This document shows, piece after piece, positions 8,047 through 43,312 of a stretch of 64,000 nucleotides of DNA. The stretch is from the NCBI GenBank assembly GCA_017515285.1, contig JAFWGN010000008.1, forward strand, positions 1-64,000. Reading direction: 5' to 3'. A model generated the notes under the pieces. That model saw only the letters and a program-made list of their open reading frames with translations. It was not told the origin of the DNA and did no database searches. A program made the position numbers and the translations under genes. How positions within the stretch are numbered: position 1 is the first letter of the stretch; every line of letters begins with the position of its first letter. Source of the stretch: Candidatus Saccharimonadota bacterium. GTDB lineage: Bacteria; Patescibacteriota; Saccharimonadia; Saccharimonadales; Saccharimonadaceae.

Positions 8047-10083
8047 CTAGAGTAGGCTTAAAGGGTCTAAGGAGATTTTGCAATCGTCTTGGAAGTTTTT
8101 GAGGAGGGTGGTGAGGTCTTTGCGGTTTTTGCTTTTTAGGATGAGTTGCCAGGAGTAGCCGGAGGAGGTGCGTTCGTGGAAGCAGGGGGTGGGAGAGGAG
8201 ATTTTAATAGAGGTGAAACCAAGTTGAACAAGTTTTTTGTTCAGGTTTTTTGAAAGGGTGCGAACCTTTTTTAATGTTGTTTGTTCAGTTTTGTAGGTGA
8301 CGGTGAGTTTGGCAAGGTAGGAGAAGGGAGGGAAAGCGGTTTTCTTGCGCTCCTTGACCTCGAAGTTGTAGAACCCGAGATAGTCGGCGTTTTTCGCGAA
8401 GTTGATGACGGGGGAAGAGGGTTTGTAGGTTTGGATGATAACGGAGGCGGTATTGAGGTGGCCGCGACCAACGCGGCCGATGACTTGGGTCAGGAGTTCG
8501 AAAGTCTTTTCTTCGGAGGAAAAATCGGGGAGAGAAAGACCAGAGTCGGCTTGGACGATGCCGATAGAGGCGAGGTGGGGGAGATCGAGACCGCGAGAGA
8601 CGGTTTGGGTACCGATGATGATTTTGATTTCGCCGGATTTAACTTCGTCGTAGAGTGCGTCGAGAGATTCGCCTTTCTTGTTGTCGGCGTCGAAACGAGC
8701 GATTCGGACTTCGGGGAAGAGTTTTTTTAGTTCGGATTCGAGGAGTTTGGTACCGAAGCCTTTATGAAGGATTGAGGGGTGATGGCAATCTGGGCAGGAG
8801 GGGGGGATTTTCTCTTCGTGTCCGCAAGTGTGACAGAGGAGAGAGAAAGAGTCAGAGTGGAGGGTTAGGGGGAGAAGGCAATTCGGACAGAGGGCTTGCC
8901 AGCCACAGTTTTCGCAGAGGGTGACAGGGGCGGAGCCACGACGGTTGTGGTAAATTAGGGTTTGGTGGCCGTTTTTGAGGTTGGCTTTGATGGTTTCGAG
9001 GAGTGCGTCGGAGAAATAGCGGTTTTTAGAGAAAGAGTCGCGAGAGGTGGAGTCAATGACCTTGATTTCGGGTTTGATGGCGGTTTCTTTGGCTTTTTCG
9101 GTTAGGGAGACGACGGCGTTTTTGGATTTTGCGAGGTAAAAATCCGAGACGAGAGGGGTCGCCGAGCCGAGAATACAAGGGATTTTTAGGGTTGTTGCGA
9201 GGAAGGAAGCGAGGCGAAGGGCGGAGTATTTTGGAGTGTTTTCTTGGTAATAGGTTGATTCGTGCGCCTCGTCGATTAGAATGAGGCCGAGGTTTTTTAG
9301 GGGAGCAAAGAGGGCCGAGCGGGGGCCGATGACGATTTGAGGGGTTTTTGAGAGGAGAAGGTCCTCCCAGATTAAGTGGCGTTCGGATTCGGTTTGTTTT
9401 GAGTGGATTAAGGTGACTTGGCGAGAGAAGGTTGATTCGAAGATTTGGACGAGTTGGGAGGTGAGGGCGATTTCGGGGACGAGGAGGATTACGGACTGGT
9501 CGTTTTCGAGGGCTTCGGAGGCGAGCTTTAGGTAGATGTTTGTTTTGCCGGAGCCGGTGACGCCGAAGAGAAGGCGGGTCGAGCTTTTGATGGATTTTAG
9601 GTCTTTTAAGGCTTGGTATTGGTAAGAGTTTAGTTGAATGGTGCTCGCTTGCGGTCGACAGCTCGTTCGCCGGCCGCCGTCCTCGCTCCCGTCGTTACGG
9701 GGCTCGGCGGCTAATGCTCGGCCGTAGCCTCCTCGTTGCCGGCGAGACGAGACTGTCTCCCCGCTCGCAAATCGACGATGCTTCTCAACTCCGACAGGGA
9801 GGAGGAGGGAGGCGGTGGAGGGGAGGGGGGAGAGGTAGTAGGCGGAGAGCCAGAGGGCGGCTTTTAAGAGGTGGTTGGGGAGAGGGGTTTTATAGAGGAG
9901 TTTTTCGATGTTTTTGCATTTGAACGGGGGTTGTTTGACTTTTTTTAGGACAATTCCGTTGCTAAAGGAGTGGCCGAGGGGGATTTTGACGATATTGCCA
10001 GGGGTGAGGGAGAGGTCGGAGGTGTAGGTTAGGGTCGTGGCGCCGGAGCGGAAGATTTTGGTTGGGATTACCTCGTAAAACAT
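8047..10083 (-). CDS. priA: Primosomal replication restart helicase PriA with an in-frame repeat insertion
   Basis: A 678-aa superfamily-2 helicase that reloads replication forks. It shows the N-terminal 3'-end binding domain, Walker A GVTGSGKT, DEAH box IDEAHEST, and the zinc-binding region CENCGWQ...CPNC...CHTCG...CPDC. The start at 10083 (MFYEVIP) is chosen over an upstream ATG at 10200 because TATACT ends 6 nt before it and the upstream residues are not family-like. Residues about 106-147, between the N-terminal domain and the helicase core, are encoded by palindromic element A2 (peptide GGYGRALAAEPRNDG). The element does not break the frame. Confidence 0.93.
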   Translation of the reverse strand: MFYEVIPTKIFRSGATTLTYTSDLSLTPGNIVKIPLGHSFSNGIVLKKVKQPPFKCKNIEKLLYKTPLPNHLLKAALWLSAYYLSPLPSTASLLLPVGVEKHRRFASGETVSSRRQRGGYGRALAAEPRNDGSEDGGRRTSCRPQASTIQLNSYQYQALKDLKSIKSSTRLLFGVTGSGKTNIYLKLASEALENDQSVILLVPEIALTSQLVQIFESTFSRQVTLIHSKQTESERHLIWEDLLLSKTPQIVIGPRSALFAPLKNLGLILIDEAHESTYYQENTPKYSALRLASFLATTLKIPCILGSATPLVSDFYLAKSKNAVVSLTEKAKETAIKPEIKVIDSTSRDSFSKNRYFSDALLETIKANLKNGHQTLIYHNRRGSAPVTLCENCGWQALCPNCLLPLTLHSDSFSLLCHTCGHEEKIPPSCPDCHHPSILHKGFGTKLLESELKKLFPEVRIARFDADNKKGESLDALYDEVKSGEIKIIIGTQTVSRGLDLPHLASIGIVQADSGLSLPDFSSEEKTFELLTQVIGRVGRGHLNTASVIIQTYKPSSPVINFAKNADYLGFYNFEVKERKKTAFPPFSYLAKLTVTYKTEQTTLKKVRTLSKNLNKKLVQLGFTSIKISSPTPCFHERTSSGYSWQLILKSKNRKDLTTLLKNFQDDCKISLDPLSLL
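9642..9768 (-). repeat. Palindromic element family A, copy A2, in frame inside priA
   Basis: A 127-bp element embedded in priA. On the minus strand it begins TGCGAGCGGGGAGACAG and ends CGACCGCAAGCGAGCA, with inner arms CGCCGGC/GCCGGCG. It is the same length as A1 within 1 bp, shares both ends and the core GGAGGCTACGGCCGAG, and contains no stop codon in the priA frame. Base composition is richer in C and G than the surrounding gene, which marks it as an insertion. Confidence 0.9.
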
Positions 10084-10180
10084 AGTATAAGTATAGCAAT
10101 AAAAAACCAAAAAGTCTGTTGTTAAAAATACATTTTTGATATATAATCTCTTGTAGAAGTAAAGAGAGGTAAAAAAATAG

Positions 10181-10480
10181 ATGCTAGACGTTTTCATCAC
10201 ATCGAGAGTGCGGCGAAAAATCTTGGTTGTGTTCGCGAAGTATCCGGATTTTAAGACGCACGTGAGGGGGCTTTCGAAACTGATTAAGGAAGACCCGGGG
10301 AATATTCAGCGGGAATTGAACCGGCTAGAGAAGGGGAAGTTTTTGATAATGACGAAAAAGGGGAACACGAAAATCTATCAGACGAATAAACAGTTTCCGA
10401 TTCTCAAAGAGCTTCAGAGTATGGTGATTAAGAGCCAACAACTTTCTGCTAATAATAAACCTAATAAAACTATTGGTTGA
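10181..10480 (+). CDS. Winged-helix DNA-binding protein (ArsR/MarR-like), unknown target
   Basis: A 99-aa basic protein. Residues about 5-70 read as a winged helix: SRVRRKILVVFAKYP (helix 1), HVRGLSKLIKEDPGNIQRELNRLEKGKF (helix-turn-helix) and LIMTKKGNTKIYQTN (wing). This is the pattern of small transcription regulators that sense or select promoters. No ligand-binding domain is visible. Its stop overlaps the recJ ATG (TGATG), so the two are translationally coupled; a role in regulating recJ is only a guess. Confidence 0.65.
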   Translation: MLDVFITSRVRRKILVVFAKYPDFKTHVRGLSKLIKEDPGNIQRELNRLEKGKFLIMTKKGNTKIYQTNKQFPILKELQSMVIKSQQLSANNKPNKTIG

Positions 10481-32572: not shown

Positions 32573-33242
32573 GATTGTCGCGTTGGTGTTGGTGTTTGGG
32601 GCGGTGTTTTTTGCGATTGTTTTTAGTAGCGTGAAACCGGCGGAAGTGGCGGGGAAAGTTTGGACGGAGAGTATGGTGGTCGGGGACCCGGAGACGGCGG
32701 TGAGGCATTATGTGGTTTATACGGATTTGATGTGTCCGTATTGTAATTACTATGCGAAAGTGATTATGGATAATGATTCCGAGTTTAGGGATTATCTTTC
32801 GAGAAATAAAATTGCGTATGAGGTTCGGGTGACGGATATGCTTTATGAGTCGTCGGGGGTGGAGCTTTCGAGGCCGGCGGCGGAGGCGGCGTATTGCGCC
32901 GGACGAGAGGGGAAGTTCTTTGAATTCTATCACGGGTTTTTGGTCGCGATTTTTGAGGATTACTATGAGAAGGGAATTGGTAATTCGAAAACGGCGGCGC
33001 CGATAAAAGACATTGAGAACGCGTATTTTGAGGAGATTGCTGAGGAGGTGGGGGTTAGCGCGGAGTTTAAGACGTGCCTTGAGAACGAGGAAACGGTGGC
33101 GGAGGTTCAAGAAAAGACTAGGAAGGCGGCGACGGTTGCGCAAGGATTGCCGTATTTTGTGTTTGGGAAAATGCAGACGGGGGGATTTGACCCGAGTTGG
33201 GGGTGGAGCGTGGTTCGAAGTATGTTTGATAGCGGGCTTTAA
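32556..33242 (+). CDS. Membrane-anchored DsbA-like thiol oxidoreductase
   Basis: A 228-aa protein: an N-terminal signal-anchor (about residues 5-25), then a thioredoxin-fold domain with active site MCPYCNYYAKV (CPYC), a helical insertion, and the cis-Pro loop QGLPYFVFGK. It should form or shuffle disulfides outside the membrane. ATG 32556 is chosen over an in-frame GTG at 32520. It overlaps the CPTC membrane protein by 17 nt, so the two probably act together. Extracellular Cys in the DGR target (a C near its C-terminus) could be a client, as an inference. Confidence 0.85.
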   Translation: MKRAGRIVALVLVFGAVFFAIVFSSVKPAEVAGKVWTESMVVGDPETAVRHYVVYTDLMCPYCNYYAKVIMDNDSEFRDYLSRNKIAYEVRVTDMLYESSGVELSRPAAEAAYCAGREGKFFEFYHGFLVAIFEDYYEKGIGNSKTAAPIKDIENAYFEEIAEEVGVSAEFKTCLENEETVAEVQEKTRKAATVAQGLPYFVFGKMQTGGFDPSWGWSVVRSMFDSGL

Positions 33243-33264
33243 GGCCGCGGGTTTTGACAAAAGA

Positions 33265-33297
33265 AATCTCGCCCGCTATCTTTATAGGGGCGAGATT
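33265..33297. terminator. Bidirectional terminator between the DsbA-like gene and tRNA-Phe
   Basis: Stem AATCTCGCCC/GGGGCGAGATT with a 12-nt loop. The flanks give short A/T runs on both strands. Confidence 0.65.
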
Positions 33298-33328
33298 ACT
33301 ATCACTTCGTGTTAGTTGTTTCAACAAC

Positions 33329-33404
33329 TGGTGGCTCCGGTCGGACTTGAACCAACGACACAAGGCTCTTCAGGCCTCTGCTCTACCAGCTGAGCTACAG
33401 AGCC
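33329..33404 (-). tRNA. tRNA-Phe (GAA)
   Basis: A 76-nt cloverleaf with acceptor GGCTCTG/CGGAGCC, discriminator A, encoded CCA, D-arm AGCTCAGCTGGTAGAGC, anticodon loop CTGAAGA (anticodon GAA) and T-loop GGTTCAAGTCC. It is divergent from hisS, and the promoters overlap in a 41-bp gap. Confidence 0.96.
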
Positions 33405-33445
33405 AACCTTCTTTATTTTATCACAAAGTGTGCTAAAATAAAAGC

Positions 33446-34717
33446 ATGAAAAAGCTAAATACTTCCCCAATCTCCGGCATGCAAGAACTTTTGCCCGAAA
33501 AGCAGGCCATTTTTAACCAAATGAAACGCCAAATTGAGGAAGTATATCGGCTCCACGGATTTTTGAACATCGAAACGCCCATGATTGACCGAACGGAAAT
33601 CCTGTTCGCGAAGGCGGGTGGAGAAACCGAAAAGCAGATTTATCGAGTCTATAAAACCGGTGAGAGCGCGGAGGAATCGCGCGAAGCGTTGCGTTTCGAC
33701 CACACGGTTCCGCTCGCTCGCTACGTCACCGAACACGAGACTGACCTTGCCTTTCCGTTCCGCGTTTCTCAAATCGGTCGTAACTTCCGCGGCGAACGCG
33801 CGCAAAAGGGGCGTTTTCGCGAATTTTACCAATGCGACATTGACGTCGTTTCTAGGAACTCTTTGCCGATTGAATATGACGTTGACGTTATTTTGACGCT
33901 TTTTGAGGCGCTCGAGAAAATCTTGCCTAGGAAGCGGAAGCTCGTCCGCATTTCGAACCGCAAAATCCTTTCCGGGTTTTTGGAAGAGCTAAACTTGCAG
34001 GAAGTTAAGGACGAAATCTTTTCTATTATCGACCACGCCGAAAAGGTCTTGCCGGAAAAAACCCGCGAGAACCTTGAGTCGCTTAATATCGGCGAAGAGC
34101 GCGTCGCGCAGGTTCTCGCTTTCATCAATCTTTCCGGAAAAAGGGAAGCAGTCCTCGCCGCTCTGCGGGGCTTTGGATTTGAGAACGAGACGTTTAAGGA
34201 AGGACTCGAGGAACTCGACCGAGTGTTCTCACTCCTTGAGTCGCAGGGGCTTGAAAAATCGATTATTCTCGACATGAAAATTATCCGCGGGCTTGATTAT
34301 TATACCGGTACCGTGTTCGAAACGATCCTTCCCGACTTTCCGAAGCTCGGCTCGGTTTGCTCCGGCGGGCGCTATGAAAACCTTGCCGAACTCTATTCAG
34401 AGCAGAAATTCCCCGGCGCCGGGGGGTCGATTGGGCTTACGCGTCTCTTCTCCGTGCTAGACGACAGCGGAATCTTACCGGAAAGCGAAGTCAAAAAACC
34501 GGTTGACCTCGCGATTATTCCGGTTTCTGCTAGTGAAGTTGATTATTGCTTCGGACTTTCGGAGGAGTTGCGGGAAGAGGGAAAAAACGTTGACCTCGTT
34601 CTGGCCGATAAGAAGCTGGGCGATAAATTAAAATATGCTTCTAAAATCGCTGCTTCTGCCATCGTCATCGGTCCAGATGAAGTGGCCTCCGGGAATTATT
34701 CGATTAAGACATTTTGA
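33446..34717 (+). CDS. hisS: Histidyl-tRNA synthetase
   Basis: A 423-aa class II synthetase. Visible are SGMQELLPEKQ, motif 1 around HGFLNIETPM, motif 2 RNFRGERAQKGRFREFYQCDID, the HisA-type loop RGLDYYTGTVFE and motif 3 GGSIGLTRLFSVL. A short C-terminal anticodon-binding domain ends at SGNYSIKTF. Codons are richer in C-ending triplets than neighbouring genes, which may mark separate history or expression level. TAAAAT lies just upstream of the ATG. Confidence 0.95.
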   Translation: MKKLNTSPISGMQELLPEKQAIFNQMKRQIEEVYRLHGFLNIETPMIDRTEILFAKAGGETEKQIYRVYKTGESAEESREALRFDHTVPLARYVTEHETDLAFPFRVSQIGRNFRGERAQKGRFREFYQCDIDVVSRNSLPIEYDVDVILTLFEALEKILPRKRKLVRISNRKILSGFLEELNLQEVKDEIFSIIDHAEKVLPEKTRENLESLNIGEERVAQVLAFINLSGKREAVLAALRGFGFENETFKEGLEELDRVFSLLESQGLEKSIILDMKIIRGLDYYTGTVFETILPDFPKLGSVCSGGRYENLAELYSEQKFPGAGGSIGLTRLFSVLDDSGILPESEVKKPVDLAIIPVSASEVDYCFGLSEELREEGKNVDLVLADKKLGDKLKYASKIAASAIVIGPDEVASGNYSIKTF

Positions 34718-34732
34718 TAGATTTACTAGCTT

Positions 34733-34887
34733 AAAGATAATAATTTTTACGACTAAGAGTCTCACGCAAGCAGCATAAAAAATCATCAGCCTATTTTCTC
34801 CGCGCGGAGACAAGCTCGTGCTCGAAAATGGTGATGATTTTTTATGCTTTTGGTTCGACTCCAAAAGTCGTAAAACTTATTATCTTT
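34733..34887. repeat. Palindromic element family C, copy C1
   Basis: A 155-bp element with nested arms. Outer: AAAGATAATAA...TACGACT with AGTCGTA...TTATTATCTTT. Inner: GCATAAAAAATCATCA with TGATGATTTTTTATGC (perfect 16 bp). Centre: CTCCGCGCGGAG. It lies just after hisS and could also stop its transcript. Confidence 0.88.
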
Positions 34888-34978
34888 AAGCCTCTAATCT
34901 TGCACAACCAACCTAAAAAATCTGATAATTTGCTTTTATGCCTTTCTCGGACACAGCGTCTCGCTGATCCGTCTGCCT

Positions 34979-35135
34979 AAAGATAATAGAGTTTTAGGGC
35001 TATGAGTCTCGCGTCATCAGCCTAAAAAATCATCAGCCTATTTTCTCCGCGCGGAGGCAAGCTCGTGCTCGAAAATGGTGATAATTTTTTAGGCTGTTGG
35101 CTCGACTCCGGAAGCCCTAAAACCCTACTATCTTT
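34979..35135. repeat. Palindromic element family C, copy C2
   Basis: A 157-bp element, direct-repeat partner of C1 about 90 bp away. Outer arms AAAGATAATAG.GTTTTAGGGCT / AGCCCTAAAAC.CTACTATCTTT and inner arms AGCCTAAAAAATCATCA / TGATAATTTTTTAGGCT. Compared with C1, stem bases changed on both sides (ACGACT/AGTCGT versus AGGGCT/AGCCCT; GCAT/ATGC versus GCCT/AGGC), so pairing is conserved. Confidence 0.88.
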
Positions 35136-35211
35136 AAGCTCCAATCTCCGTCGAGTTCTTGAAGGGCGCAAAAGCAAATTATAACCAAAAGCAAAGCAAA
35201 TTAAAAGTGGG

Positions 35212-35240
35212 TTGACGGCGGGAAACGTAAGGATTATAAT
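35212..35240 (+). promoter_or_regulatory. Promoter of the DGR target gene
   Basis: TTGACG (35212-35217), a 17-nt spacer and TATAAT (35235-35240), then AGGAGG (35256-35261) 4 nt before the ATG at 35266. This gene has a conventional leader and strong SD, unlike the many leaderless genes. Confidence 0.8.
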
Positions 35241-35265
35241 AGTGCTTATGAACATAGGAGGACAA

Positions 35266-37860
35266 ATGAGCCACAACCATAATTTAGGCAAAATTAATGA
35301 AACCGAGATTTTTGGGCGGCTTTTGCGCGGAACGATCGCAGCGTCGCTTGTTTTTGCGCTCGGTTTCTTAATTGTGCCATATATATTAACAGAAGTTTCG
35401 GCGACGACGGCGTCAACGGACGTAACGTGGGCGGGGATTTCGCTAGAGCTCGACCCAGATTATGCGGCGACGCAAGGTGGGGAATCGCCGACAGCGTTGA
35501 CGCACGGGGACGTCGCGTTCGGTGAGGTTACGCCGACGAGTCGCGACACGACTACCGGCGCTTACGGGACGCAAAAGGTCGCGAAAAAGACGATTCGGGT
35601 CGTTACGAACGGAAAATATTATAACGTTTTCCTTTCGATGGGCGACGATGAGTCAAACTCGCTCAAGATTGAGGCGAACGATTCGGACCAGACGATTCCG
35701 GCGACACTCGGAACTTGGAGCACGCCGGCGGCGTTTAGCCAGAGCGGGTGGGGATACGCGGTGCCGGGTTCGACCGTTACGGGAGCGGGTTTCGCGACAC
35801 TTGCGACCTATAATGCGTATGACGACAATCTCGCGGGGTCGAGTAGCGACAACTTGACCAAGACCGGGACAGGGTCGGGATTTTATAACACGGGGACTTG
35901 GGCGGCGGTGCCGACGTTCGGGAATGCGCAACAAATCTGGAAGGCGAGTAACGCGTCCGGATTCTCTTCCGGCTCGACGTTTGACGTCTATTATTCCTTG
36001 ATGGCGGACGCGAGTGTCATGTCCGGGGTCTATGAAAACACGATTGTCTATACGGCGATGGCGTCTTCTTCCGACCTTGATACGGTTTCGACGAACCTTT
36101 CGAGGAGCGAGGAAATCGTTACTTCGGGGACGGTCGAGACGATTAAAATCGACTTTACGACGACCGAAACCTTGGCTTCGAACGACGTTAAAGTCTATCT
36201 CGTTCCACACAAGGTTTTTGCCGGGTCGAACGGTTACACGGTAAACAGCCTTTCGACAACGGATTATAACCAATGCGCGGTTACCGCGGTGACGACGGGG
36301 ACGGGGGCGGCGACGATTACCTGTACGATGCCGAACATCGGAGCGACTGCGACTGGCGACACGATTGCGGTGGCGGGAGATAACAGTAGCCTTGCTGCGG
36401 ATAATGCGAACGTGAAGGGGGAATATGACTTTTGGGTCAGGGTTTCCACTATGGACCAGACGCTTGATTATATCTCCCAATACAAACTCAATTCGGTGAA
36501 TGCGCCGGCGGCGACGTATATCGGGTTGCAATCAAAGAGAACTTCGACGAATGGTGGTGGCTACTACGTTTCTACTATGCAGGAAATGACTACGAGTGTT
36601 TGCAAAAACACCAACATGTGGGGTACCGGTGTATTAACCTATGATTCTACAACTCTAGCGGCTAATGGCAACGACGCCCGCGTCTATGACTATACTGGTT
36701 CTGGCACTCCTCTCGCTTCGACAGCAAACGCTTCCGCCGCGATTGGTGTTGGTACCTTCCTCCTCGGTGACAATCGCGAGACGGTGACTTCCGGTGGACA
36801 GAGCGGGACAAACTATAAAACTTACCTTGTTCGGAGACTCGCAGACGGGCACTGTTGGATGGTTCAGAACCTCGACCTTAACCTCGCGGACTTTACGAGC
36901 GGGAAGAGTAAGCGCCTCACCTCCGAGAACACCAATCTTAACACCAAGGACATTTGGATTCCTGACGCAAAAATGACGGCGGCAAAGACTACGCTTGAAC
37001 CTGGTCCTTCCGGCGGTCTCTCGGGTCTCTCCGTCTCCACTTACCAATTCCAATCCCGCAATAGCTTCGGCCCGAACCTTTACTGGGGAAGTAGGTATCA
37101 AGCAAATACTACCACCGACAACACCGGCACCGCTAATAATAACGGTCTCGTCATCGCAAACAACGCCAACTCTAACTTCGCTCGTTCCTATAATAACGAT
37201 TACGCCTACCTTACCGGCACGCAAAACGTTAAGAACGTCGCGGAATGTGCCAAAATCACGAATAATGAGGCGGTCTGGAGCGGTTACTGCCAACAGAACG
37301 GCCAAATCGGAAACGCTGGCGGTTCCCTTACTTCCGCCACTTCAAGCGACGGCACCACGCAGGACACCACCTGGCAACCAAGTAGTATCACTAGCGACAC
37401 TGCCACTACCTTCACTATGCGCGGTTCGAATTATCTCGGTGATTATTACAACTGGTATGCCGCTACCGCGGAGACCGGAAGTTACACCACCACTTCCGGC
37501 AACATCCAAGACGACATCTGCCCCAAAGGTTGGCGATTACCTACCAACTCCGGCGAAGGTTCTTGGGACGACCTCATTAAGACTACCTACCAATTAACAA
37601 CAAGCTACGGATACACGGCCAATAACCGCAAAGCTCTTAACAAAATCATGCAGCTTCCGCTCTCTATTCCGTTCGCCGGGAACTATGAGTGGGCTAACGG
37701 CGCACTTAACAATAGGGGCAGCAACGGGGTCTATTGGTCCTCTACACCGTATTCTGCTGGAGGAGCGCACGCCCTGGGCATGAATTATGGCGGCTACTTG
37801 TCTGCGCAGCTCGGCAACGATAAGGTGGGCGGCTTTACTATCCGTTGCGTCGCCGAGTAG
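35266..37860 (+). CDS. DGR target: secreted protein with diversified C-terminal lectin-like (FISUMP-type) domain
   Basis: An 864-aa exported protein. A hydrophobic segment (about 24-42, TIAASLVFALGFLIVPYIL) followed by SATTAS is the signal peptide or anchor. The middle (about 50-420) is Thr/Ser/Gly-rich beta sequence, possibly pilin- or Ig-like. The C-terminal part (about 430-864) has the C-type-lectin-like pattern GHCWMVQNLD...CPKGWRLPT...YWSSTPY...IRCVAE seen in FISUMP proteins and DGR variable proteins. The VR encodes the last 66 residues. ATG 35266 is set by AGGAGG. It is likely a surface-displayed ligand-binding protein; the ligand is unknown. Confidence 0.88.
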   Translation: MSHNHNLGKINETEIFGRLLRGTIAASLVFALGFLIVPYILTEVSATTASTDVTWAGISLELDPDYAATQGGESPTALTHGDVAFGEVTPTSRDTTTGAYGTQKVAKKTIRVVTNGKYYNVFLSMGDDESNSLKIEANDSDQTIPATLGTWSTPAAFSQSGWGYAVPGSTVTGAGFATLATYNAYDDNLAGSSSDNLTKTGTGSGFYNTGTWAAVPTFGNAQQIWKASNASGFSSGSTFDVYYSLMADASVMSGVYENTIVYTAMASSSDLDTVSTNLSRSEEIVTSGTVETIKIDFTTTETLASNDVKVYLVPHKVFAGSNGYTVNSLSTTDYNQCAVTAVTTGTGAATITCTMPNIGATATGDTIAVAGDNSSLAADNANVKGEYDFWVRVSTMDQTLDYISQYKLNSVNAPAATYIGLQSKRTSTNGGGYYVSTMQEMTTSVCKNTNMWGTGVLTYDSTTLAANGNDARVYDYTGSGTPLASTANASAAIGVGTFLLGDNRETVTSGGQSGTNYKTYLVRRLADGHCWMVQNLDLNLADFTSGKSKRLTSENTNLNTKDIWIPDAKMTAAKTTLEPGPSGGLSGLSVSTYQFQSRNSFGPNLYWGSRYQANTTTDNTGTANNNGLVIANNANSNFARSYNNDYAYLTGTQNVKNVAECAKITNNEAVWSGYCQQNGQIGNAGGSLTSATSSDGTTQDTTWQPSSITSDTATTFTMRGSNYLGDYYNWYAATAETGSYTTTSGNIQDDICPKGWRLPTNSGEGSWDDLIKTTYQLTTSYGYTANNRKALNKIMQLPLSIPFAGNYEWANGALNNRGSNGVYWSSTPYSAGGAHALGMNYGGYLSAQLGNDKVGGFTIRCVAE

Positions 37861-37877
37861 GTGTTCCGCCCCGCGTA
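37659..37877 (+). repeat. DGR variable repeat (VR)
   Basis: 219 bp at the 3' end of the target gene, including the stop codon and 17 bp beyond. It matches the TR (40035-40253, minus strand) at 200 positions. All 19 differences are at TR adenines: 10 to G, 5 to T, 4 to C. They fall in 13 codons and change 12 amino acids, nine of them Asn (AAY) in the TR. No insertion or deletion is seen. The last roughly 50 bp, including GTGTTCCGCCCCGCGTA, are unchanged and should contain the IMH. Confidence 0.97.
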
Positions 37878-37905
37878 TTCCCCGGAAATGGGGCAATAGG
37901 CGGGG
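37869..37905 (+). promoter_or_regulatory. GC-rich hairpin at the VR 3' end (DGR target hairpin)
   Basis: Nested stem CCCCGC / TATT CCCC - GGAAAT - GGGG C AATA / GCGGGG. It starts in the identical VR/TR tail and continues 28 bp past it. DNA hairpins just after the VR are known to help retrohoming in the Bordetella phage DGR. The TR copy lacks the right arm, so the hairpin marks the recipient only. Confidence 0.75.
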
Positions 37906-37959
37906 AGGTCGCAAGAAAAATTAACAAATAAGCTCAAAATGATGAAAGGAGAGCGAAAG

Positions 37960-38781
37960 ATGGCTGAACAACCAAGCCTCAGTAATTACAACAAACGTAA
38001 AGAACGCAAAGAATACTTCGAAAGGAAGGAGAAAGTCCAGGAACAGGAGAAGGGGAACTTCGACCGAATTATCTTCATTAGGGGAACGGGAGGATTTTGG
38101 GTCGTGATTGGACACTCCGCGGTGATTCTCGCGAACAAAATCGGAAAGGACCTCAAGATGCGCGTTCCGCTCAGGAACGACTCGGACTATGACTTTAAGT
38201 CCAAGGAGGGGAAGATTTCGATCAGGAACCTTGAGTTCTACAAGAAAAAACTTTTGGAATCGGGACTTGTGACGGAGAAACGGGGAACTAGCGATATTTA
38301 TGAGCTTCAGCTCGTCAAACCGATTTCTCCGACGGAGTTTGAAGTGCTTGCGCAGGCGAAAGAGCTCAAGAAGAAACAACTTGAGGAAGAGGTTTTAAAG
38401 AGTGTACCAATGCCGAAGACGCACGCGAACATTACGGAAGTGGTCCGAGCAGCGCTTAAAATATATTCTAAATATACCAATAAAGATGCGAAGGAAATAT
38501 TTGGGAGTAAAGTGATGAATGAGCTTCGCTCGGCGCAAAAGGTGCTCCTTATGACGTGTCTTGAGGATTTGCCTTTCGCCTTTGGATTGCAGAAAATTAA
38601 AACGTATCTTTCACACGCACAAGCCGGAGTGATGCAAATGATGGAACTCGGGATTTGGAACGTGGAGGATGCGGCCGCGATTGCTACGGGGATTATTGAG
38701 ACAAGAACGTCGCTTGAACGAGAAGAAAAACAAGCGATTGAAGATATGAATAAAAGAGCGGAGGATTCTAGTGATGAATAA
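37960..38781 (+). CDS. DGR accessory protein: MutS domain-I-like N-terminus with helical (Avd-like) C-terminus
   Basis: A 273-aa basic protein. After a charged helix (about 10-35), residues about 38-135 (IIFIRGTGGFWVVIGHSAVILANKIGKDL...FYKKKLLESGLV) resemble the mismatch-recognition domain I of MutS, a module remembered from some CPR DGR accessory proteins. Residues about 145-265 are purely helical, like the four-helix Avd that binds TR RNA and the reverse transcriptase. AAAGGAG sets ATG 37960. Its end overlaps the RT start by 8 nt, so the two are coupled. The split into two known modules is an inference. Confidence 0.65.
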   Translation: MAEQPSLSNYNKRKERKEYFERKEKVQEQEKGNFDRIIFIRGTGGFWVVIGHSAVILANKIGKDLKMRVPLRNDSDYDFKSKEGKISIRNLEFYKKKLLESGLVTEKRGTSDIYELQLVKPISPTEFEVLAQAKELKKKQLEEEVLKSVPMPKTHANITEVVRAALKIYSKYTNKDAKEIFGSKVMNELRSAQKVLLMTCLEDLPFAFGLQKIKTYLSHAQAGVMQMMELGIWNVEDAAAIATGIIETRTSLEREEKQAIEDMNKRAEDSSDE

Positions 38782-39946
38782 GAAGATAAAGTGTAATCAC
38801 CGATTAGAATTCACCTATTCCGAAGAGTGGAAAAATTTAGTTGGCCCGAAGGAAAATATTGAAAGTTGGCTCCTCGCAGAACTTTATAAAGCGTTTTATA
38901 ATGCGCGGAAAGCGAAACGAGGAACAAACGACGAGCAGAGGTTCGAAAATAGGTTGGACGCGAACCTCTTGCTCCTTCGGGAAGAGATTTTGGATCGGAG
39001 CTATAAACCGAAATGTGGAATTGCGTTCATTATTCACGACCCGGTGATGCGCGAGATTTTCGCGGCGCCGTTTCGGGACAGAGTGATTCATCATTTCCTT
39101 TATAATCAAGTGGCGGAGTGGTGGGATCGGAGACTGATACACGATTGTTATTCATGTCGAGTCGGGAAAGGAACGCTGTTTGGGATTAAACGATTTTCCC
39201 ATCACATGAAGAGCGCGTCGAAGAACTTTCAGAAGAAGACGTATGTGATTAAAATGGATGTTCAAGGGTATTTTATGAGCCTTCCGAGGAAGAAACTTTA
39301 TGAGAGAGTATGCTGGGGGCTTAAACGACAATTTCCATACGGCGGGCCGAAATATCAGATTATCAAGTTTCTTTGGAAACAAGTGATTTTCGACGACCCG
39401 ACGAGGGGAGTGGAGAGGCGGGGCAACCTTAAAGAGTGGGACATTTTACCGAAGACGAAAAGTTTATTCGCGCAACCGCCGGGGAAAGGAATCGTGATTG
39501 GGAATCTTTCGTCACAACTTTTGTCGAACATTTATCTCGACCAGCTCGACCGGTTTGTTAAATATGACCTCGGGTATAAACACTACGGGAGGTATGTGGA
39601 CGATTTTTATGTTATGGTGACGGAGGAGGAGCTCACGCGGGCGAAACGGGATATTGAGAGGATTGCGATGTTTCTGACGACGTTGGAGCTTCGGATGCAC
39701 CCGAAGAAAACGAAGGTGCAGGAAATTCACCGGGGGATGGCGTTTCTTGGGAGCGTGGTTTATCCGGGGAGGACGGTCCCGGGGCCGAGGGTGACGAAAA
39801 ATTACATGAAGGCGGCGATTGAAGTTGAGAGTGGGATTAGGGGGATTGACTCGCTCGTATCTTATATGGGGCTTTTTAAGCACTTAAATGCTAGAAAAAC
39901 GCAAAAAGGTATTTTCAAAAAGGTTGGGTGGGAGTATAATATATAG
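38774..39946 (+). CDS. DGR reverse transcriptase
   Basis: A 390-aa group II-intron-like RT without maturase or endonuclease domains. Fingers/palm motifs are in order: FRDRVIHHFLYNQ, KRFSHHMK, VIKMDVQGYFMSLP (first catalytic Asp), KGIVIGNLSSQLLSNIYLDQLD, HYGRYVDDFYVMV (YVDD catalytic Asp pair) and MAFLGSVV. The IGNLSSQ variant of motif 4, in place of QGxxxSP, is diagnostic for DGR RTs and linked to adenine-specific infidelity. It copies TR RNA into mutated cDNA. A bidirectional terminator follows the stop. Confidence 0.96.
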   Translation: MNKKIKCNHRLEFTYSEEWKNLVGPKENIESWLLAELYKAFYNARKAKRGTNDEQRFENRLDANLLLLREEILDRSYKPKCGIAFIIHDPVMREIFAAPFRDRVIHHFLYNQVAEWWDRRLIHDCYSCRVGKGTLFGIKRFSHHMKSASKNFQKKTYVIKMDVQGYFMSLPRKKLYERVCWGLKRQFPYGGPKYQIIKFLWKQVIFDDPTRGVERRGNLKEWDILPKTKSLFAQPPGKGIVIGNLSSQLLSNIYLDQLDRFVKYDLGYKHYGRYVDDFYVMVTEEELTRAKRDIERIAMFLTTLELRMHPKKTKVQEIHRGMAFLGSVVYPGRTVPGPRVTKNYMKAAIEVESGIRGIDSLVSYMGLFKHLNARKTQKGIFKKVGWEYNI

Positions 39947-39961
39947 TGCTTATGTCCATAT

Positions 39962-39994
39962 AAAAACCGGGTTCGATGAGAGCCCGGTTTTTTT
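39962..39994. terminator. Bidirectional terminator between RT and TR transcripts
   Basis: Perfect stem AAAAACCGGG/CCCGGTTTTT with T7 on the plus strand and T5 on the minus strand. It can end the target-accessory-RT transcript and the convergent TR RNA. Confidence 0.88.
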
Positions 39995-40468
39995 GTTGGT
40001 TGTTGGGTTTTGAGGTTTTTATCTCGCGGGGGAGTACGCGGGGCGGAACACCTACTCGGCGACGCAACGGATAGTTAAGCCGTTCACCTTATTGTTGCCG
40101 TTCTGCGCATTCAAGTTGCCGCCATAATTCATGTTCAGGTTGTGCGCTCCTTCAGCAGAATACGGTGTAGAGGACCAATAGTTCCCGTTGTTGCCCCTAT
40201 TGTTAAGTGCGCCGTTAGTCCATTCATAGTTCCCGGCGAACGGAATAGAGAGCAAAGGAGCTCGGTGCAGCCAAGAGAAGCGTCTTTCGGGCGACCGTGA
40301 GCTGTCGCTCTCGGTCGATATTATGACCTCGCCTAGTTTATGCTGAACTTTGGGGTTGATTCCTCGGGTCGCACGAATTCGGCAAGGGCGCTTCTGTATT
40401 CCCCGTTGAGGAACCGAAAGAAAAGGGAATTTCAAGGGGGTCATCCTCGACCTCCGGCTTAGCCTCTA
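39995..40468 (-). ncRNA. Template RNA of the DGR (TR transcript)
   Basis: Defined by the promoter at 40475-40503 and the terminator at 39962-39994, giving an RNA of about 475 nt with a roughly 215-nt 5' leader before the TR. The leader is G+C-rich and structured (for example GACCGAGAGCGACAGCTCACGGTCGCCCG). An ORF runs through it in the TR frame, but it is explained by TR being a copy of coding sequence. Ends are inferred. Confidence 0.7.
40035..40253 (-). repeat. DGR template repeat (TR)
   Basis: 219 bp, minus strand, 89 bp past the RT stop and inverted relative to VR and RT. It reads as VR with Asn codons (AAC/AAT) at the diversified sites, giving for instance NNGNYWSS where VR has SNGVYWSS. 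Just past the shared tail (GCGTA) TR has C where VR has T, then TCCCC in both; such IMH/IMH* differences give direction to retrohoming. Confidence 0.97.
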
Positions 40469-40474
40469 TATATT

Positions 40475-40503
40475 ATTATACACAAGCGAAATGGAAAATG
40501 CAA
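40475..40503 (-). promoter_or_regulatory. Promoter of the TR RNA
   Basis: Minus-strand TTGCAT (40498-40503), a 17-nt spacer and TATAAT (40475-40480). It lies about 220 bp upstream of the TR and points through it, so TR RNA is made independently of the RT mRNA. Confidence 0.75.
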
Positions 40504-40597
40504 GGGGTGCGGAGCGTGAGAGAATACGGATTGCGGGGGCTATGGAATGTGGATTGCGGATTGTGAGGGCGGTGCGGGACAAAACAAGAGAGCCTTT

Positions 40598-40680
40598 GGA
40601 TGAAGAAAAATTGAAAGGAGACTTGAGGCCGGTTGAACAGTAACCTCAAGCCGAAGTTCTTCATCCTCGAACTCTCTATG
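40598..40680 (-). ncRNA. Small hairpin RNA candidate next to the TR promoter
   Basis: Minus strand: GGATGAAGAA pairs perfectly with TTCTTCATCC (40598-40607 with 40657-40666), enclosing CTTGAGG/CCTCAAG (40622-40650) and a TTACTGTTCAACCGG loop. It starts a few bases after its own promoter (40686-40714). A 62-codon ORF runs through but has no good RBS and low-complexity product, so an RNA is more likely. Confidence 0.5.
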
Positions 40681-40685
40681 TAGTC

Positions 40686-40714
40686 ATTTTAGCACGCGGA
40701 AGGGGAAATGTAAA
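40686..40714 (-). promoter_or_regulatory. Promoter of the small RNA upstream of TR
   Basis: Minus-strand TTTACA (40709-40714), a 17-nt spacer and TAAAAT (40686-40691). The start region ACATAGAGAGTTCGAGGATGA resembles that of the TR promoter transcript (ATATAGAGGCTAAGCC..GTCGAGGATGA), suggesting a duplicated or co-regulated promoter pair. Confidence 0.65.
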
Positions 40715-40759
40715 AGTTAAGCGGGATGGGGATGGCGAAGGTGGGCGGGGTATAAAAAA

Positions 40760-40836
40760 TGGTGCGAATGAAGAGACTCTAACTCTCGACCTCTTCCTTG
40801 GCAAGGAAGCGCTCTAAACAACTGAGCTACATTCGC
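40760..40836 (-). tRNA. tRNA-Gly (GCC)
   Basis: A 77-nt cloverleaf with acceptor GCGAATG/CATTCGC, encoded CCA, anticodon stem CTTCC/GGAAG around TTGCCAA (anticodon GCC), and T-arm GAGAGTTAGAGTCTCTT. A promoter TTGCAA-17-TACACT lies upstream on the minus strand. tRNA genes are common borders of mobile or variable regions; this one flanks the DGR, but no attachment-site repeat was seen. Confidence 0.95.
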
Positions 40837-40915
40837 ACGTTTAGATAAAAATAGTGTATCAAATCTTTACAATTTTTGCAAGTGTATATATAATCATATA
40901 CATAAAGGAGATAAA

Positions 40916-41494
40916 ATGAATACTGGAACAATTGTTCTTATCATCATATTATTAATTGCCTTGGTTATTATTGCGGCGTTTTGGACGACGTATAACGGGC
41001 TAGTTAAGCTCGACGAGCGAGTCAACGAGGCGTGGTCGGACATTACCGTTCAACTTAAATATCGCGCGGATTTGATTCCGAATGTCGTCGAGACGGTCAA
41101 GGGCTACGCGAAGCACGAAAAGGAAGTCTTCGAAGGCGTTACGCAAGCGCGGAGCGCAGTGATGGGGGCGAAGAGCGTAAAGTCGGCGGCGCAAGCCGAG
41201 GCGGACATGACACAGGCGCTGTCGAGAGTGTTTGCGATTGCGGAAGCGTACCCGCAACTCAAGGCGGACTCGAATTTCGTTAAACTCCAAGAGCAACTCC
41301 AAGACGTCGAGGACAAAATCCAAGCGTCGCGCCGGTTCTATAACGCGGGGGCGAAAGAACTTAACACGAAAGTTAAGACTTTCCCGACCAACATTATCAA
41401 CAAGATTATCGGCCATTTTAAGACGCGAGATTATTTCGAGGTGGCGGAAACTGAGCGCGCGAAGATTGCCGAAGCACCTAAAGTTAGTTTCTAA
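40916..41494 (+). CDS. LemA family protein
   Basis: A 192-aa protein with one N-terminal transmembrane helix (about 5-25) and the LemA helical-bundle motif: YNGLVKLDERVNEAWSDITVQLKYRADLIPNVVETVKGYAKHE, then PQLKADSNFVKLQEQLQDVEDKIQASRRFYNAGAKELN. The family is common in CPR; function is unclear. It precedes htpX by 2 nt, a frequent LemA-HtpX pairing that suggests a membrane-protein quality role. A TATAAT box and AAAGGAG precede the ATG. Confidence 0.93.
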   Translation: MNTGTIVLIIILLIALVIIAAFWTTYNGLVKLDERVNEAWSDITVQLKYRADLIPNVVETVKGYAKHEKEVFEGVTQARSAVMGAKSVKSAAQAEADMTQALSRVFAIAEAYPQLKADSNFVKLQEQLQDVEDKIQASRRFYNAGAKELNTKVKTFPTNIINKIIGHFKTRDYFEVAETERAKIAEAPKVSF

Positions 41495-41496
41495 AA

Positions 41497-42375
41497 ATGT
41501 ATAAGAATATCGCGGCGAATAAGCGGAATACCGTATTTATCATGATCGGGTTTGTTCTGGTTATCGCCGCGATTGCGCTAGCGATTGCTTATGTATATCA
41601 AGACGCGTGGATTGCGGCGTGGGCGATGGGGGTGGCGGCGGTCTATGCGATTTTTCAGTATTTTTTGGCGTCGAGAATTGCGGTCGCCATGACGGGGGCG
41701 AGAAAAATTGAGAAAAAGGACAACCGAAGACTTTATAATACCGTCGAGAATCTTACGCTGACGGCGGGGCTTCCCATGCCGGAAGTGTATATTATTGAGG
41801 ATGCGGCGCCAAACGCATTTGCGGCGGGGAGGGACCCGGAGCACGCGCTCGTTTGCGCGACGACGGGACTGCTCGATATTATGAACGACAAGGAGCTGAC
41901 GGCGGTGATGGCACACGAGATTTCGCACGTCAAAAATTACGATATTCGGGTTTCGACGATTGTGTTTGGGCTTGTTTCTATGATTGGGTTTATCGCGGAC
42001 GTTGGGTGGAGAATTGCTTGGAGAAGTTCGAGACGGGACCGGGAGGAAAACAGCCCCGTGGGGATGATTATTTTACTTATCACGATGATTGTGGCGCCGA
42101 TTGCGGCGGCGATTGCGCAGATGGCGGTTTCGAGACAGCGCGAGTATCTTGCGGATTCGAGTGCGGTGATGATTACGCGGTATCCGGAAGGGATGATTAG
42201 TGCGCTTAAAAAACTCGAGACGCACACGCGACCGATGGCGCAACAAAATCCGGCGACGGAGGCGATGTTTATTGCAAACCCGCTTTCAAAGAAGGGGGTG
42301 AATGGGCTGTTTTCGACGCACCCGCCGATTGAGAAGAGAATTGAAAGGCTTGAGAATGCGAAGTTCAAGTTTTAG
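41497..42375 (+). CDS. htpX: Membrane zinc protease HtpX (M48 family)
   Basis: A 292-aa integral membrane metalloprotease. It has two N-terminal helices (about 10-55), EVYIIEDAAPNAFAAGRDPEHA, zinc motif MAHEISHVKNYD, two further helices, and the third ligand segment SRQREYLADSSAVMIT. It ends with STHPPIEKRIERLE. It degrades damaged membrane proteins. It is cotranscribed with lemA upstream and with the membrane protein downstream, overlapping the latter by 20 nt. Confidence 0.94.
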   Translation: MYKNIAANKRNTVFIMIGFVLVIAAIALAIAYVYQDAWIAAWAMGVAAVYAIFQYFLASRIAVAMTGARKIEKKDNRRLYNTVENLTLTAGLPMPEVYIIEDAAPNAFAAGRDPEHALVCATTGLLDIMNDKELTAVMAHEISHVKNYDIRVSTIVFGLVSMIGFIADVGWRIAWRSSRRDREENSPVGMIILLITMIVAPIAAAIAQMAVSRQREYLADSSAVMITRYPEGMISALKKLETHTRPMAQQNPATEAMFIANPLSKKGVNGLFSTHPPIEKRIERLENAKFKF

Positions 42376-43312
42376 AAGGGCTTACCGAGAGGATTACGTT
42401 CGGGAACTTTCCGTTCCGGGGCTTTTGCACCACGCGGCGGACACGTTTTCGATTATTTTTAAGAACTGGAAATTGTTTTTGCCGCTCGTGATTTTTATTG
42501 TTCTTTTTAACGTGATTTTTGTTGGGATTATGAGCGAGGAGACTTATGTTCAGTTCCAGAAAACGCTCGACGCGACGAACGCGGAAATTGCGGGAGGGGA
42601 AATTGGAAACTTTGCGAAGTCGGGGCTTCTTTTAGTTTCGACGGTGACAACGGGCGGACTTTCGGGGGGACTCGGCGAGGCACAGACGGTGTTTGCGGTG
42701 ATTAGTTTTCTTTTGATTTGGCTCGTGACGATTTATTTGCTTCGACACCGAATGGCGGGGAAGAAAGTTAAACTTCGGGACGGGCTTTATAACGCGTTAA
42801 CGCCGCTTATTTCGACGTTCGTGGTTTTTATTATTGCGATTTTGCAGTCGATTCCGATTTTTGTCGTCGTCTTTACTTATTCGGCGGCGGTTCAGACGGA
42901 TTTTCTTTCGACGCCGTTTTATGCGCTAGTTTATTTTATCTTTGCGGCGTCCATGCTTCTTCTTTCGGGGTATTTGCTCGCTTCGACTTCGATTGCGCTG
43001 GTGGCGGTTTCGGCGCCGGGGCTTTACCCGATGACGGCGATGAGGACGGCGAGCGAACTTATTGCGGAGAGAAGGATGAGATTTGTCGTCCGGCTATTGT
43101 TTTTAATTCTCGTTCTTGCGGTTTTATGGGTCGTCGTCATGCTGCCTTTGATGACGCTTGACCTTTGGCTTAAAGCCACGTTTGATTGGCTCGCGGGATT
43201 TCCGTTTGTTTCGATTTTGCTTCAGATTATGACGAGTTTTTCTTGCATTTATGCGACCGCGTATTTATACTTATTTTATCGGAGGATGTTAGATAATGAA
43301 AAAAGTGAGTAG
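42356..43312 (+). CDS. Polytopic membrane protein, unknown function
   Basis: A 318-aa protein with about six hydrophobic helices (about 43-63, 100-150 as two, 170-195, 205-230 and 255-300). After a basic N-terminus comes SVPGLLHHAADTFSIIFKNWKLFLPLV, like the N-terminus of glycerophosphoryl-diester-phosphodiesterase-membrane-domain or DUF975-type proteins, but I cannot assign it. ATG 42356 lies inside the end of htpX. The end overlaps ligA by 17 nt, so lemA-htpX-this-ligA look like one operon. Confidence 0.65.
   Translation: MRSSSFRRAYREDYVRELSVPGLLHHAADTFSIIFKNWKLFLPLVIFIVLFNVIFVGIMSEETYVQFQKTLDATNAEIAGGEIGNFAKSGLLLVSTVTTGGLSGGLGEAQTVFAVISFLLIWLVTIYLLRHRMAGKKVKLRDGLYNALTPLISTFVVFIIAILQSIPIFVVVFTYSAAVQTDFLSTPFYALVYFIFAASMLLLSGYLLASTSIALVAVSAPGLYPMTAMRTASELIAERRMRFVVRLLFLILVLAVLWVVVMLPLMTLDLWLKATFDWLAGFPFVSILLQIMTSFSCIYATAYLYLFYRRMLDNEKSE

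Follow-up and report, generated by a model that had tools for sequence, protein, structure and literature searches.

In the BPP-1 diversity-generating retroelement (DGR; mtd-avd-TR-brt), the template repeat (TR) lies between avd and brt within one transcript, and the spacer that precedes brt folds, recruits bRT-Avd and primes cDNA synthesis (PMC12875486). Homing efficiency in BPP-1 needs a hairpin 3′ of the variable repeat (VR), of which other phage DGRs have a version with a GRNA loop (PMC3240598). DGRs of Patescibacteria are known (PMC8144416), so the presence of a DGR in such a genome is not in itself new; the text of Roux et al. 2021 makes no mention of TR strand or accessory, and the targets of its clade 2 are usually without recognisable transmembrane or conserved domains (PMC8144416). 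Inverted cassettes (group G5) are rare among isolate and human-microbiome DGRs, where canonical cassettes outnumber them more than 20-fold (Yan et al. 2019, PMC6642488). Here we describe a DGR in a 64,000-nt stretch of a Candidatus Saccharimonadota genome (assembly GCA_017515285.1, contig JAFWGN010000008.1, positions 1 to 64,000; hereafter the window). Taken as a whole, our proposal is that this is a chromosomal Ca. Saccharibacteria DGR whose template is a separate RNA gene, a reading that we consider very probable.

The window element resembles the BPP-1 DGR in having an error-prone reverse transcriptase (RT) of the same family, an Avd, adenine-specific TR-to-VR copying, an initiation of mutagenic homing (IMH) element in the 3′ part of VR, a GC hairpin with a GRNA loop 3′ of VR and a lectin-like target tip. 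It does not have the BPP-1-type cassette, in which TR sits between avd and RT on the same strand and a 3′ spacer runs into RT: here a fused avd abuts the RT gene, TR follows RT as a unit on the opposite strand, with the conserved fold 5′ of TR. With the DGRs of Patescibacteria, or candidate phyla radiation (CPR), that make up clade 2 it shares its host group, a cellular setting and the occurrence of several elements per genome, but its target begins with a hydrophobic segment and matches FISUMP. As in the G5 cassettes, the RT is inverted relative to the canonical cassette, but the Saccharibacteria layout is a clade-wide rule and comes with a fused accessory and a leader. We found no description of a clade-wide detached template, leader and fused accessory in the literature compared; an earlier report of the inverted CPR layout is possible.

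An adenine-only record identifies the element as a DGR

VR and TR (Table 1) align over 219 bp without gaps and differ at 19 positions, all 19 of them adenines in TR, where 58 of the 219 positions are A (hypergeometric P = 8.8e-13). The changes comprise 11 A>G, 5 A>T and 3 A>C, with none at a TR C, G or T; they fall in 13 codons, nine of which are AAC or AAT in TR, and alter the residue in 12. A first-pass annotation, made from the sequence without database searches, had described the repeats in these terms, down to the predominance of AAY codons, and alignment and tabulation confirmed it. Beyond the 219 bp a further 6 nt align (225-nt alignment), the first base being C in TR and T in VR and the other five matching. 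The IMH of VR was recognised solely from its position and composition. Searched against the whole 850-kb genome, TR gave strong matches only to itself, to the window VR and to the end of one diverged paralogous gene on contig C17, and no copy of the window TR end was found in IMG/VR.

The RT carries the motifs IGNLSSQ and YVDD, as expected from the earlier annotation of an adenine-mutating enzyme with an IGxxxSQ motif, and the IGN..SQ and YVDD residues are retained in 26 aligned relatives. When a profile of these 26 relatives was compared with the PDB, 8ub7 ranked at the top (8.9e-41), group II intron-type RTs followed from 3.6e-13, and retron RTs were weaker. The entry 8ub7, which the PDB table titles ‘Reverse transcriptase’, is the BPP-1 DGR RT, and the proposed check of DGR against group II intron and retron RTs came out on the DGR side. 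Together with the lack of any Rfam intron match in window positions 33000-43000, the profile ranking rules out a group II intron or retron identity for the RT. That the locus is no DGR, and instead a chance duplication or a group II intron or retron RT beside a repeat, could appeal to RVT_1 being common to all these RT families; it is refuted by adenine-only differences at P ~ 9e-13 and by a profile that favours the BPP-1 DGR RT over group II intron-type RTs by ~28 orders of magnitude, and we give it practically no credence. The window element is confirmed as a genuine DGR, with its tested defining features in place.

With an A-tolerant ungapped scanner written for this analysis, we searched for repeat pairs in 80 loci, nearly all from Saccharibacteria, that had been retrieved by RT profile, and 63 of them gave a TR/VR pair. 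The best pairs of these 63 relatives hold 1301 mismatches at A vs 57 others; summed over all pairs, A changed to G 614 times, to T 514 times and to C 149 times. Seen from the TR side, the changed codons include 700 AAC and 147 AAT (847 together), and the changed A falls at codon positions 1, 2 and 3 in 718, 471 and 57 cases.

Variation of VR at TR adenines, for which reads from the same population had been suggested, was examined in related genomes instead. Loci L090 and L092, whose RT genes are 96% identical in DNA, have 29 VR differences, of which 26 lie at TR adenines and the remaining three are exactly the three TR-TR differences (T/C at 9, 207 and 209). VR therefore tracks its own TR and is randomised at A only, a pattern which, as far as genome comparison reaches, shows that TR-to-VR copying occurs in nature among related genomes. 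L120 and L121, a near-identical pair with 7 differences in 3.6 kb, have the same VR, which shows that activity is not constant. Such identity, together with the diverged, IMH-less VR copy on contig C17, would suit a decayed or dormant DGR whose A-only record is old and whose system is dead, but every gene is open, the RT catalytic motifs are intact, the VR-TR pair is without any non-A change over 219 bp, and recent copying is seen in related genomes, all of which makes dormancy a distant prospect. As a separate matter, L121 (JAFQGP010000146.1) is labelled Clostridia in spite of its near-identity to the Saccharibacteria DGR locus L120, a probable binning error in the public record.

The template lies 3′ of and antisense to the RT across the clade

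TR comes right after RT, on the opposite strand, in 60 of the 63 resolved Saccharibacteria-clade loci, a count that follows inspection of the apparent exceptions. L062, L081 and L096 are real variants, L066 proved to be a repeat artefact and fits the rule, and L033 looks like a further variant from the scan alone. L062, with an antisense TR that lies 5′ of the accessory gene, keeps its antisense label on the RT tree. For comparison outside the clade we scanned 46 IMG/VR relatives (RTs 33–42% identical) at a slightly lower score threshold; 42 were resolved, with TR 5′ of RT on the same strand in 41, 3′ of RT on the same strand in the last, and antisense in none. The Saccharibacteria loci form one 100/100 group on the RT tree, where the antisense label takes three changes vs 31.7 for shuffled labels, and these three are readable as one gain and two losses.

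Within the same family, those loci of the long-accessory genera g1, g83, g33 and g35 in which a TR was found never have it between accessory and RT. Genera g60, g31 and g39 have a stand-alone Avd-like open reading frame (ORF) of ~130 aa, and TR immediately precedes RT on its strand in L228, L229 and L231; for L232 and L234, also of this stand-alone group, the scan alone gave antisense pairs. The coupling of a long accessory to a moved TR is loose outside the clade, where an IMG/VR DGR group with 260–312-aa accessories has a canonical TR. The first-pass annotation had called the window element a complete DGR, which holds for TR, VR, RT and target; it had recognised neither the accessory gene nor the unusual TR placement, and its reading of the locus omitted that TR is antisense to RT, as well as the 280-aa ORF, the VR-side hairpin and the leader and promoter of TR.

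A folded leader accompanies the template

Between the candidate TR promoter and TR lies a leader of ~200 nt. An exact TATAAT at −260 to −100 from TR occurs in 25 of 64 loci, against an expectation of 4.0 and a highest value of 10 among 100 shuffles, with 9 on the opposite strand; it mostly stands 174–242 nt before TR. Of the 64 leaders, 21 contain a hairpin whose loop reads C(YANG)G, where 1.0 would be expected and the reverse strand has 1; this hairpin is preceded by a second hairpin, P2, and the enclosing helix P1 has 6–8 bp. The arms of P1 vary among loci (AGAAGCT/AGCTTCT, AGATGCG/CGCATCT, GTAAACT/AGTTTAC), and once P2 and P3 set the geometry, own partners outscore permuted ones (mean weight 14.0 vs 10.1, p<=5e-5). 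A strict three-helix search found the arrangement in 18 of 64 leaders vs 2.1 in shuffles. When the search for P1 partners was left unrestricted, it was uninformative (p=0.11); taking whichever long-range stem was most stable led to unrelated helices in many leaders, a MAFFT alignment of the leader cores was poor, and no Rfam family matched the leader. These patterns were noticed in the same sequences in which they were tested, and the numbers describe this set, with no independent replication. Within that scope, comparison of the loci shows a covarying P1-P2-P3 leader 5′ of TR. The leader also stays with TR in L062 and L081, where TR has another place or strand, and so belongs to the template.

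Survey records of cassette inversion (PMC6642488, group G5) and the variation of TR place and strand in L062, L081, L096 and L033 would fit an ordinary DGR with a shuffled cassette, its TR inverted without consequence, its leader functionless, and its priming and docking carried out through a short 3′ element or the RT antisense, roughly as in BPP-1. We think this unlikely, though a serious contender, because the layout holds in 60 of 63 loci although their RTs share only ~50% identity, and changed on the tree by a single gain and two losses, because the leader fold covaries and accompanies TR in the exceptional loci, and because the window has only ~43 nt between TR and the terminator, little space for a scaffold of the 3′-spacer kind.

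The accessory joins an N-terminal domain to an Avd

The 280-aa accessory has no significant match in Pfam, PADLOC, NCBIfam or PHROG and no direct bAvd match. A homologue stands directly 5′ of RT in 78 of the 80 related loci, the other two of which start at or near a contig end. Through its C-terminal part only (columns ~155-271), the accessory profile matches (2e-10 to 1e-9) the ~127-aa ORFs that take the place of Avd in DGRs from outside the clade and that Pfam names bAvd (PF22296) at ~1e-13, and in profile-profile comparison with another long-accessory group the same C-terminal part alone aligns (E 7e-6). Because it is this part alone that matches bAvd-type ORFs, the accessory is, by profile homology, an Avd with an extra N-terminal domain of ~150 aa, its C-terminal ~110 aa being the Avd homologue. 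Set beside the described accessory types Avd, HRDC and MSL, it is thus Avd-like in its C-terminal part but differs in carrying the additional ~150-aa domain. A MutS-like (MSL) identity of the whole 280-aa protein was rejected, with no PF01624 among the matches listed for 24 members and an Avd-like C-terminal part; MutS domain I gave a marginal match to the accessory of one relative (E 0.079), and the N-terminal domain may be MutS-like or have another fold.

A proposed mechanism with the template supplied in trans

In the mechanism that we propose, one promoter would drive the target, the fused accessory (N-terminal domain plus Avd) and the RT as a single transcription unit, and a convergent promoter would drive a TR RNA of ~0.5 kb ending at a shared terminator. 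The RT-accessory complex would bind this RNA in trans via its folded 5′ leader; adenine-mutagenised cDNA would then begin in the short stretch 3′ of TR and would replace VR, guided by the IMH and the hairpin. We place docking in the 5′ leader, with the RNA in trans, because no cis spacer before RT is possible and ~43 nt lie between TR and the terminator stem; the leader may replace the canonical 3′ spacer as docking scaffold. A bolder version extends this to the whole clade: templates would be autonomous small RNA genes that the fused Avd accessory recognises in trans via the 5′ three-helix leader, in place of the BPP-1 3′ spacer, and any TR behind such a leader would be copied. We put this forward tentatively, rating it somewhat below an even chance.

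Several points weigh against a separate, trans-acting template RNA. Its promoter, terminator and leader are inferences from sequence, and binding of the leader by RT or accessory is a proposal. With the C(YANG)G loop in 21 of 64 leaders and the strict P1-P2-P3 fold in 18–24 of 64, the fold is not demonstrated at every locus, and the P3 loop of the window itself is GACA. Evidence for activity comes from related genomes and from no near-identical strain of the window genome, and the near-identical L120 and L121 have the same VR.

Target gene and features of the locus

The features of the locus are collected in Table 1. The ATG of the target gene is preceded by AGGAGG, and its stop codon lies inside VR. 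The FISUMP match TIGR02145 covers residues 723–863 and, like PF09603, falls slightly under the curated cut-off; the N-terminal hydrophobic segment was read from sequence, and a PDB sequence search with the target gave no match. Family and N-terminus support the export and lectin-like C-terminal fold that had been assigned to this 864-aa protein. Across the clade VR sits at the target C-terminus, and a hydrophobic segment opens most complete targets. The TR/VR record, the RT identity and the copying in related genomes bear out the earlier view that the DGR diversifies a surface protein. The changes to the product fall mainly on Asn codons in the lectin-like tip and probably alter what the cell binds, which may be a host cell or a phage. 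The hairpin on the VR side is absent after TR, where folding gives −4.4 kcal/mol (z=-1.2).

Table 1. Features of the window DGR, in order of position
Feature	Position	Strand	Evidence or remark
Sigma-70-like promoter of the target-accessory-RT run, TTGACG-17-TATAAT	35212..35240	+	11/12 consensus matches; consensus match only
DGR target gene, 864 aa, predicted exported, FISUMP/C-type-lectin-like C-terminus	35266..37860	+	TIGR02145 2e-9, PF09603 5e-7
Variable repeat (VR)	37659..37877	+	219 bp; includes stop codon and invariant A-poor 3′ end (IMH)
GC-rich hairpin just 3′ of VR, GAAA loop (GRNA class)	37866..37907	+	DNA fold -16.8 kcal/mol, z=-4.4; RNA z=-4.3
Accessory protein, 280 aa: unassigned N-terminal domain and C-terminal Avd-like domain (~residues 160-265)	37939..38781	+	homologues and profile
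DGR reverse transcriptase, 390 aa	38774..39946	+	IGNLSSQ, YVDD; PF00078 1.2e-11; PDB 8ub7 8.9e-41; phrog_1423 3e-76
Terminator-like hairpin, common to convergent RT and TR transcripts	39962..39992	.	13-bp stem; T run on both strands; minus-strand z=-3.3
Template repeat (TR)	40035..40253	-	3′ of RT, antisense to RT; equal layout in relatives
Structured core of predicted TR-RNA 5′ leader: P1 (AGAAGCG/CGCTTCT) enclosing hairpins P2 and P3	40276..40395	-	z=-4.55, region picked after seeing fold
Candidate TR-transcript promoter, TTGCAT-17-TATAAT	40474..40502	-	read from sequence; -35 weak; not listed by promoter scan

The C17 paralogue of the target (891 aa; G000:C17:9648-12320, L045:5649-8321) has a related VR-like tip without the IMH end. 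Its end is 77% identical to the window TR, with 26 A and 20 non-A differences, and it is probably a retired or remotely edited target. Just upstream of the target promoter, window positions 34745-35139 hold a 132-nt sequence in two direct copies (87%) that carry long inverted repeats; the first 28 nt of the copies, CCGCGCGGAGGCAAGCTCGTGCTCGAAA, are found again at six further genome sites, a pattern resembling a repetitive extragenic palindrome (REP) or a miniature inverted-repeat transposable element (MITE).

Other retroelements and host context

The same assembly holds a second, phage-type DGR (L011, G000:C7; RT 8213-9307(-), TR 9401-9535(-), VR 10168-10302(-)) of canonical layout, whose 135-bp repeats show 20 A and 0 other differences and whose target adjoins a collagen-like tail-fibre gene on a 33-kb contig. 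Its RT has phrog_1423 in common with the window RT, and the contig either belongs to a phage that infects this bacterium or was binned wrongly. A third RT, at G000:C3:21309-22901 (L003:976-2568), is of the AbiP2 antiphage type (PADLOC E=6e-128), and a retron-type RT at G000:C14:81131-81618 (L004, L005) is split over two overlapping frames by a frameshift or a sequence error. MutS domain I was found above the Pfam cut-off in 0 of 16 same-family genomes vs 11 of 14 control genomes. The same-family bacteria thus seem to be without classical mismatch repair, and mismatches made by the DGR would therefore be spared.

Implications

What is understood of the DGR mechanism comes largely from a single phage system, whose template, accessory and RT are transcribed together and whose spacer before RT serves for docking. 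The Saccharibacteria clade has kept the chemistry, moved the template, placed a fold on the other side of TR and enlarged the accessory, and so offers a natural experiment to learn which parts of the RNA are required. For protein engineering, a detached template hints at a design of greater modularity. For the source organism, a tiny gut-dwelling bacterium, the element is a concrete candidate for surface variation in ultra-small, host-dependent bacteria.

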